Origin: Alphaproteobacteria bacterium
Lineage (GTDB): Bacteria > Pseudomonadota > Alphaproteobacteria > UBA8366
Direction: 5' to 3'
Assembly (NCBI GenBank): GCA_028281325.1
Contig: JANQKC010000009.1
Location: 1 to 64,000 of the forward strand
DNA length: 64,000 nucleotides
Shown here: positions 48,419 to 51,321 of the stretch, piece after piece
How positions within the stretch are numbered: the stretch's first letter is position 1
Layout of the letters: each line of letters starts with the position of its first letter
The notes under the pieces: generated by a model
Seen by the model: the letters and a program-made list of their open reading frames with translations, nothing else
Database searches by the model: none
What the model was told of the DNA's origin: nothing
Program-made: the position numbers and the translations under genes

Positions 48419-50032
48419 TCAGCCCGCCCGCGCGTCTTCGAGGATCATGTCGGCCGCCTTTTCGGCGATCATGATCGTCGGCGCATTGGTGTTGCCGGAT
48501 ACCAGGGTCGGCATGATCGACGCGTCGACCACCCGAAGCCGGCCGATACCGTGCAGCCGAAGCCGCTCGTCGACGACGGCCATCGGATCGGATCCCATTT
48601 TGCAGGTGCCGACCGGATGATAGATCGTCACGCTGTTGTTGCGCGCATGGTCGAGCAACTCTTCGTCGCTCTGCGCCGCCGGGCCCGGTTCGAGTTCTTC
48701 GGCGACATAGGGCCCAAGCGATTGCGTCTCGGAAAGCCGGCGCGACATCTTCATGCCGTCGACGATCGTGCGCTGGTCCGTCTGGGTCGCCAGGTAATTC
48801 GGATGGATGGCCGGGTATGCGGTGGGATCGTTCGACTTGATCGTAAGATATCCACGGCTTTCCGGCCGTAGCTGACAAACCGACGAGGTGAAGGCCGAGA
48901 ACTTGTGCAGGCCGTCCCCGGGTTTGTCCGCGCTCAACGGCTGCAGATGGAACTGGATATCCGGCGTCTCCATGTCCTGCTGCGTGCGCGCGAAAACGCA
49001 GACCTGGCTGGCCCCCATCGACAAGGGCCCGCGCCGGAAGAACAAGTAGTCCAACCCCATGAACATCTTGTTGATCGGGTTCTTCACCTGATCGTTCATG
49101 GTGATCGGGTCCTTGGTGCGGTACATGCTGCGGACCTGCAGATGGTCCTGCAGATTCTCGCCGACGCCCGGCAGGTCATGAACCGCGGCCACGCCGGCGG
49201 CGGCCAACAGCGCCCCGCCCCCGACGCCCGAAAGCTGTAGGATTTGCGGCGACCCGATCGCGCCCGCCGACAACAAAACCTCCGCGTCCGCATAAGCCGT
49301 CTGCGTCCGTCCCTCGACGGAGTACTCGATCCCGACCGCTTGCTTGCCGTCCAGCAGAACACGGTGCGCCAGCGCGTGCGTGACGACATCAAGGTTCGGC
49401 CGTTTCTTGACCGGGTTCAGATATCCGACGGCGGCGCTGCAGCGCCGCCCGTTGCGCGCGGTGAGTTGGACATATCCCGCGCCTTCCTGGCTCGCGCCGT
49501 TGAAATCATCCGTCGCCGGAATGCCGAGTTCCTCGGCGGCCTTGATGTAAACGTCGCAGATTTCGCGGCTGATGCGCATATTCGAAACGGACAGCGGGCC
49601 GCCCGCGCCATGAAACTCATCGCCGCCGCGCTCCTGATCCTCGGCTTTCTTGAAATACGGCAATACGTCGTCAAACGACCAACCGGCATTCCCGAGTTGG
49701 CGCCACTGATCGTAGTCCTGCGCTTGGCCGCGAATGTAGATCAAACCGTTTATCGAACTCGATCCGCCGAGCACCTTACCCCGCGGCCAAGCGATACTTC
49801 GGCCGTTCAGCCCGGGGTCCTTCTCGGTCTCGTAACACCAGTCGGTGCCCGGATTATGCATCGTCTTGAAGTAGCCGACCGGGATATGGATCCAGGGATT
49901 GACGTCGCGACCACCCGCCTCCAACAGCAATACGCGGTTCTTGGGATTGGCCGACAACCGGTTCGCGAGGACACATCCGGCCGACCCGGCGCCAACAACG
50001 ACATATGTGTAACGCTTCTCCCCGGACGGCAC
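48419..50032 (-). CDS. GMC family FAD-dependent oxidoreductase
   Basis: 537 residues from a GTG at 50032 with GGAGAG upstream. Glucose-methanol-choline oxidoreductases oxidise alcohols. The FAD motif is [20 protein letters not shown] and the family stretch [20 protein letters not shown]. Other segments: [20 protein letters not shown], and near the end [20 protein letters not shown] (catalytic His) with [20 protein letters not shown]. It resembles choline dehydrogenase and alkanol/PEG dehydrogenases, but the substrate is unknown. A candidate operator shared with the TRAP operon lies 28-44 bp upstream of its start codon. Confidence 0.93.
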
Positions 50033-50447: not shown

Positions 50448-50666
50448 CTAGGTCGACAGGATCGCGTCGAGCTCCTCGTCGGTCGGGAACCGACCGAGCG
50501 CCTTCTTCGAAAACGCGAGGGACCCGTCGACGGTGATTTCGAACACGCCGCCCCCGCCCCGGATCAACTCGACCTCGACCGCATCAATGGCCTGCAACCG
50601 TTCCCGCGCACGGCGGGCCCTCGGTTCGTAGTTTCAAACGCCGCAGTATTCGATTTCGATCTTCAT
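50448..50666 (-). CDS. SelW-like (Rdx family) selenoprotein with in-frame UGA
   Basis: 72 residues if the TGA at 50634-50636 is read as selenocysteine. The minus strand begins MKIEIEYCGV, then UGA (residue 11), then NYEPRARRARERLQ. After that comes VEVELIRGGGGVFEITVDGS, then SKKALGRFPTDEELDAIL and a TAG stop. The Cys8-Gly-Val-Sec11 motif and the GVFEITVDG...FSKK...GRFP pattern are the hallmarks of SelW/SelT/SelH-type Rdx proteins, which often use Sec at just this position. The ATG has GGAG upstream. A stem-loop lies after the UGA. Conventional ORF finding misses the gene because it is cut at the UGA. It is cytoplasmic, with a thioredoxin-like fold expected. Confidence 0.85.
50598..50624 (-). 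promoter_or_regulatory. Putative bacterial SECIS stem-loop for the SelW-like gene
   Basis: Directly downstream of the UGA the minus strand has CCG-AGGGC-CCGC... and forms CCCGC-CGTGC-GCGGG, a 5-bp upper stem with a 5-base loop that has G in its second position. Flanking CCG and CGG can extend the stem with an internal bulge. The loop begins about 21 bases after the UGA, within the range of bacterial SECIS elements. Confidence 0.6.
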
Positions 50667-50720
50667 GCCGACACACTCCATCCTGTTCGCCGGCCAACGG
50701 GCCGACATCGTGCGGTTCCC

Positions 50721-50750
50721 CATATCTGTAACGATTCCGCCGGTAGTCAA
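50721..50750 (-). promoter_or_regulatory. Possible promoter of the SelW-like gene
   Basis: Minus strand TTGACT (50745-50750), 18 bases, then GATATG (50721-50726), about 55 bp upstream of the ATG. The -35 box is good; the -10 is weak. Confidence 0.35.
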
Positions 50751-50856
50751 GCCGTCCGAAGCGGCAAGGCGTCAACCGGTTGTTCCCGCAGATGCCGCAA
50801 CCGGATACACTGCTCTCCCTCACCGCACGGCCCGAAACCGAAGCAGGAACCCCGCC

Positions 50857-51321
50857 ATGTCCAACGTCTCCCTCGATCAGGCAACGGCCCTCATCGACGC
50901 GGCGCTCACCGTCGGTGCGGATGCCGGCATGATGCCGTTGACCGTCGCCGTGTTGGATACCGGCGGTCACCTGGTCGCGCTGAAGCGGCAGGACGGGTCC
51001 GGCATCATGCGCGTCCAGGTCGCCACCGGCAAAGCCTGGGGCGCCCTGGGGATGGGCGCGTCCAGCCGGCTGCTGCGCGACCGCCTGAGCGACCGCCCGG
51101 CCTTCGTCTCGGCCCTCACCGTCGCCTCCGAAGGCCGCTTCATCCCGGTGCCGGGCGGTGTGCTGATCCGGGACGCGGACGGCGGCATCGTCGGCGCGGT
51201 CGGGATCAGCGGCGATACCTCGGACAAGGACGAATACTGCGCCATCGCAGGCGTGAAAGCCGCCGGTCTGACGCCCGATCCCGGTGAACCCGACCCCGAT
51301 TGGCAAGCTTCCAAACTTTAG
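50857..51321 (+). CDS. GlcG/HbpS family haem-binding-like protein
   Basis: 154 residues from the ATG at 50857 (AGGAA eight bases upstream); the frame extends to 50665 without family sequence. GlcG/HbpS proteins are small alpha-beta proteins of uncertain function found in catabolic operons. The features are LTVAVLDTGGHLVALKRQDG, ATGKAWGALGMGASSRLL, RFIPVPGGVLIRDADGGIVG and AVGISGDTSDKDEYCAIAGV, all diagnostic. There is no signal peptide. It is divergent from the selenoprotein gene and 73 bp before the enoyl-CoA hydratase-like gene. Confidence 0.9.
   Translation: MSNVSLDQATALIDAALTVGADAGMMPLTVAVLDTGGHLVALKRQDGSGIMRVQVATGKAWGALGMGASSRLLRDRLSDRPAFVSALTVASEGRFIPVPGGVLIRDADGGIVGAVGISGDTSDKDEYCAIAGVKAAGLTPDPGEPDPDWQASKL

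Follow-up and report, generated by a model that had tools for sequence, protein, structure and literature searches.

A predicted SelW-like selenoprotein gene with an in-frame UGA codon in an alphaproteobacterial genome

Bacterial SelW-like selenoproteins were described between 2005 and 2008 in surveys of the Sargasso Sea, of bacterial genomes and of the GOS data (PMC1088965, PMC1794560, PMC2398784). In the Sargasso Sea paper the function of SelW is called unclear, the CXXU motif is taken as a sign of a redox role, and an interaction with glutathione is noted (PMC1088965). For the SelW of Campylobacter jejuni (CJnc60), translation past the UGA has been shown by Ribo-seq and proteomics (PMC11955535), and the SelW genes of epsilonproteobacteria were wholly missed by annotation (PMC4607533). 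The locus reported here shows no fundamental difference from the surveyed bacterial proteins. It belongs to the same family (PF10262), has the same CxxU motif in a stand-alone small protein with few Cys homologues, and carries the same bacterial SECIS (bSECIS) just after the UGA, its apical loop containing a G; this copy lies in an alphaproteobacterial genome with at least seven predicted selenoprotein genes. Since the family was described in 2005-2008 and one member is proven in C. jejuni, the locus is best regarded as a genuine but ordinary further member. It is a well-supported addition to a family which, according to metagenome surveys, is the most abundant selenoprotein of the sea, and it leaves the understanding of Sec decoding unchanged.

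The selW-like frame and its product

The DNA comes from Alphaproteobacteria bacterium (UBA8366), assembly GCA_028281325.1, and the window is the whole stretch of 64,000 nucleotides that was analysed, positions 1-64,000 of contig JANQKC010000009.1. The features of the locus are as follows.

50448..50666, minus strand: selW-like coding sequence of 72 residues, with ATG at 50666-50664, TAG at 50450-50448 and one internal predicted Sec-UGA
50634..50636, minus strand: predicted Sec-UGA, codon 11, at the second redox position of CxxU; the partner Cys is codon 8
50603..50617, minus strand: putative bacterial SECIS hairpin, stem CCCGC/GCGGG (50617-50613 with 50607-50603), loop CGUGC (50612-50608)
50676..50684, minus strand: AGGATGGAG, a candidate Shine-Dalgarno-like element read from the sequence, about 9 nt ahead of the selW ATG
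50665..51321, plus strand: HbpS/GlcG-like protein, divergent neighbour (matches Pfam HbpS-like from residue 69 on, E 1.2e-30)
48419..50032, minus strand: GMC oxidoreductase, downstream neighbour (Pfam GMC_oxred_N/C)

The sense codons of the frame (50451-50666, minus strand) translate as MKIEIEYCGV-UGA-NYEPRARRARERLQAIDAVEVELIRGGGGVFEITVDGSLAFSKKALGRFPTDEELDAILST, ending at the TAG. With the UGA read through, the product matches Pfam Rdx PF10262 (E 9.8e-17) at 61.4 bits, above the cut-off of 22.6, and NCBIfam TIGR02174 at 53.6 bits, above the cut-off of 34.2. The original prediction, made from the DNA letters and their open reading frames, had proposed a minus-strand 72-residue Rdx protein that needs readthrough of one UGA at the redox position of a Cys-x-x-Sec motif. 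Both the frame and the Rdx match agree with this, and the UGA was found at codon 11 with the Cys at codon 8. The locus is predicted, with a probability of about 0.97, to be a working gene whose product is a bacterial selenoprotein of the SelW-like (Rdx family) type, with UGA used as Sec.

The product reached 85 bits against NF041051 (the SelTWH_Campy equivalog), and that of the congener 84.4, so that the cut-off of 88 was not reached. By its score the product is related to NF041051 but is not filed under that equivalog. It has the CxxU motif in common with C. jejuni SelW (NF041051), and both are encoded by an unannotated small gene with a UGA. However, the two belong to different classes, with 72 residues here compared to about 80 in C. 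jejuni and a score just under a cut-off that was built for Campylobacter-type proteins.

A sequence match was also found to the solved Rdx protein Atu0228 of Agrobacterium tumefaciens (PDB 2fa8; E 1.2e-9). The AlphaFold model, which used an alignment of 25 homologues, has a pLDDT of 92, and all 23 of its PDB matches at E<0.001 belong to the SelW/Rdx family, mouse SelW and MIEN1 among them, with TM values of 0.83-0.93 for the top SelW-like structures. In this predicted model C8-G-V-U11 is placed after strand 2-8 of a thioredoxin-like fold. Atu0228 and other Cys-type Rdx proteins share the fold (TM 0.83-0.90) and the position of the CxxC/U motif, but they have Cys for Sec, their motif is CTQCxW, and their loop between residues 26 and 31 is longer. 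Mammalian selenoprotein W (2npb) also has the Rdx fold and CxxU, with 27% identity; its eukaryotic SECIS is in the 3' UTR (PMC1088965), unlike the hairpin just after the UGA here.

Standard annotation would miss or truncate a gene of this kind, as it did in Thermomicrobium roseum. The 'Rdx family protein' deposited for T. roseum plasmid NC_011961.1 (L119, 1501-1740) begins 57 nt into the match, past the UGA of CTSU, so that the deposited protein is truncated, with its active site missing. The expectation that automated annotation would give nothing or a fragment is thus borne out in this relative.

Conservation of the UGA codon and the hairpin

A total of 190 genomes sampled by kinship were searched for SelW homologues, and 27 had a match. 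Exactly one TGA was present in 23 of these (the source genome and its congener G001 included), while 3 had none and 1 had a decayed remnant. A further 77 loci came from scanning GTDB contigs; the fetched loci include some genomes that were reached twice, e.g. L010 and L038. In the alignment to Rdx/SelW homologues that had been proposed with the original prediction, codon 11 is UGA in 94 of the 103 homologous loci covering the position (the window's own included), Cys in the other 9 and nothing else, and every one of these 103 loci has Cys at codon 8. The UGA loci span Alphaproteobacteria, Desulfobulbaceae, Planctomycetota, Anaerolineales and others. Among them are L045 and L057, from the cultured relatives Desertibaculum subflavum and Rhodopila globiformis.

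The congener keeps the UGA and the frame at 87% identity. When the window was compared with the congener downstream of the UGA, dN was 0.071 and dS 0.53 (dN/dS about 0.13). This low dN relative to dS shows that the region after the UGA is translated and under purifying selection. Synonymous differences between the two are scarcer in codons 1-21 (1 over 13 sites compared to 16 over 39; Fisher p 0.04).

These data bear directly on whether the locus is instead a pseudogene, a Cys-type Rdx gene with a chance nonsense mutation. UGA is one step from UGC or UGU, and real decay is seen in a relative (G010, locus L035, described below). However, the UGA is common to 94 of 103 loci across the groups named above, the codons after it are under purifying selection, and the hairpin covaries, as described below. 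A chance nonsense mutation had been judged much less likely from the outset, and in the congener and many homologues the UGA is found at the same place, within a frame that is unbroken before and after it; where a true stop or frame decay in close relatives could have spoken for a pseudogene, the closest relative keeps both UGA and frame. The pseudogene reading is refuted because the UGA and the frame are conserved in relatives, and its probability is minimal.

The hairpin of the predicted SelW-like selenoprotein gene begins 16 nt after the UGA and its loop begins 21 nt after it, with the spacing and the loop G as originally described. Published bSECIS rules (PMC13188914) ask for an upper stem of 4-16 bp, a loop of 3-9 nt, a G in the first two loop positions, a UGA-loop spacing of 16-37 nt and an MFE <= -7.5 kcal/mol. 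The selW hairpin fits this published consensus, with 5 bp, a 5-nt loop, G at loop position 2 and a spacing of 21, and the isolated hairpin folds at -7.8 kcal/mol and the 37-nt stretch at -9.9. The stability is unremarkable when these GC-rich 37 nt are compared with their own dinucleotide shuffles (z -0.19), and what makes the hairpin significant is the comparison of homologues, not single-sequence folding.

Covariation was tested on 47 representatives with <75% nucleotide identity, using as the control 2000 resamplings of synonymous codons that kept the protein. Standard pairs made up 203 of 235 in the stem compared to 146.9 +/- 5.2 after resampling (maximum 168 among the 2000), and the complete 5-bp stem was present in 30 of the 47 representatives compared to 3.3 expected, though these figures are not strict probabilities because the representatives are still related. 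When the 3' arm was slid by 1-3 nt, the pair count fell to 88-133. The stem pairs switch between U-A (T-A), G-C and C-G, which are compensatory changes. In about one third of the distant homologues, mostly Acetobacteraceae, the 5-bp stem is not formed in exactly that register.

In the decayed SelW remnant at L035 (about 1705-1480, minus strand) the UGA and a SECIS-like GCCCTCCGTGCGAAGGTGC are still present, but the Cys motif and the reading frame are gone and there are further stops. This remnant is an example of a true pseudogene of selW.

Gene neighbourhood and proposed mechanism

The longest ORF of the divergent HbpS-like gene would overlap the selW start codon, and the true start of this gene is probably further in. 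The GMC oxidoreductase is on the same strand as selW across a gap of about 400 bp, and no operon evidence was seen for the pair. Near selW the window and the congener have two genes in common, the divergent HbpS-like one and that for an enoyl-CoA hydratase, and Acetobacteraceae share a mannose-1-phosphate guanylyltransferase-like gene (named from sequence alone) upstream of selW. Beyond close relatives no conserved neighbours of selW were found as a functional clue, and the neighbourhood does not reveal the substrate. The promoter and terminator scan gave nothing, including no sigma-70-type promoter, the Rfam scan of the window gave only three tRNAs, and there was no match to the phage collection.

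When Sec-tRNA runs short, translation ends at any Sec UGA, and the codon could on that ground be a selenium-dependent switch that yields a short regulatory or truncated product, rather than serving mainly for enzyme production. However, there is no downstream gene in an operon for translational coupling, and the protein after the UGA is strongly conserved. A switch is therefore highly improbable, and production of a SelW-like enzyme is the preferred reading.

In bacteria it is well established that SelB drives Sec insertion at a SECIS immediately 3' of the UGA, and this fits every feature computed here: a conserved frame, a hairpin that covaries, all of the decoding machinery in one genome, and the fold. 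Ribosomes at the UGA of codon 11 would be supplied with Sec-tRNA(Sec) by SelB docked on the downstream hairpin, and we infer that Sec is inserted in this way in the source organism. The product would have 72 residues and a thioredoxin fold, its first strand ending in the redox pair Cys8-x-x-Sec11. Judging from CxxU in a thioredoxin-like fold, it is most likely a small thiol/selenol oxidoreductase: Sec11 would attack the substrate, and Cys8 would resolve the selenenylsulfide.

Sec decoding and other predicted selenoprotein genes of the genome

The absence of selA, selB, selD and tRNA-Sec had been named as a result that would count against Sec at this codon, but all four were found in the genome. 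The tRNA-Sec of the same assembly scored 76.7 bits and has the anticodon UCA; selA (TIGR00474, 601 bits) and selB (TIGR00475, 453 bits) are both near it on the same strand, and selD (418 bits) is encoded away from these three. The presence of all four together with further UGA genes argues that the genome decodes Sec. Some 1.2 kb, with a gene of the enolase superfamily in it, separates the tRNA-Sec from selB, which it follows (L036:9966-10056 and L036:11214-14555, both minus strand). The tRNA-Sec gene is separate here, whereas it has been reported nested inside selB in some Alphaproteobacteria.

Among the 190 genomes, 38 had a tRNA-Sec match above 67 bits, and the next scores were <=54, which leaves a clear gap. 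A strong tRNA-Sec was present in 20 of the 23 genomes with UGA-SelW compared to 18 of the 167 without it (Fisher p 8e-14, with kinship ignored). The three UGA-SelW genomes without one are in fragmented or incomplete form, with 540, 530 and 80 contigs and a completeness of 77-93%, and none of the 3 Cys-form-only genomes among the 190 had one.

A UGA frame alone cannot tell Sec from tryptophan or from general readthrough under an alternative code. However, homologues have UGA or Cys at codon 11 and never Trp, UGA also terminates genes in this genome (e.g. at the selD 3' end), a tRNA-Sec with a UCA anticodon and SelB are present, and the hairpin after the UGA is position-specific. The reading of this codon as tryptophan or by general readthrough has a negligible chance of being correct.

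The genome holds at least seven predicted selenoprotein genes, which by their sequences are those for SelW, SelD and five peroxiredoxin-like proteins. The selD gene (G000:C17:10982-11911; L115:1483-2529) itself has a UGA, in HGGGU-GCK, with a hairpin AGCACC-GUC-GGUGCU after it. The five others are AhpC/TSA-family (peroxiredoxin/thioredoxin-like) genes with a single active-site UGA each, in the contexts PGUT, NNUT, WUPYC, WUPFC and WUPYC (L128, L129, L130, L131 and L132 on G000 contigs C16, C27, C2, C17 and C24). All six UGA genes other than selW belong to known selenoprotein families. A hairpin with bSECIS geometry was found in each of them, though as isolated hairpins not all of the six reach the threshold of -7.5 kcal/mol. 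Two of the five peroxiredoxin-like genes have a CGUG loop start at 21-nt spacing, as in selW. The formate dehydrogenase and the AhpD/CMD family of the genome were also checked and have no UGA.

This differs from the 2006 survey, in which FdhA was the sole selenoprotein in the Sec-decoding Alphaproteobacteria covered (PMC1794560); the lineage here has many. The genome is thus an example of a selenoprotein-rich alphaproteobacterium, which is mildly notable for the class. Several of the SECIS loops start with C-G-U at about equal spacing, which suggests tuning to one SelB. The odds are about even that in a selenoprotein-rich branch of Alphaproteobacteria, with SECIS elements tuned to one SelB, the SelW-like protein is a core Sec enzyme kept by vertical descent. 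A second SelD-type domain, which has no UGA, is present in an 819-aa frame of the genome (G000:C33:123515-124432; L116), and this frame is possibly an oxidoreductase/SelD-related fusion.
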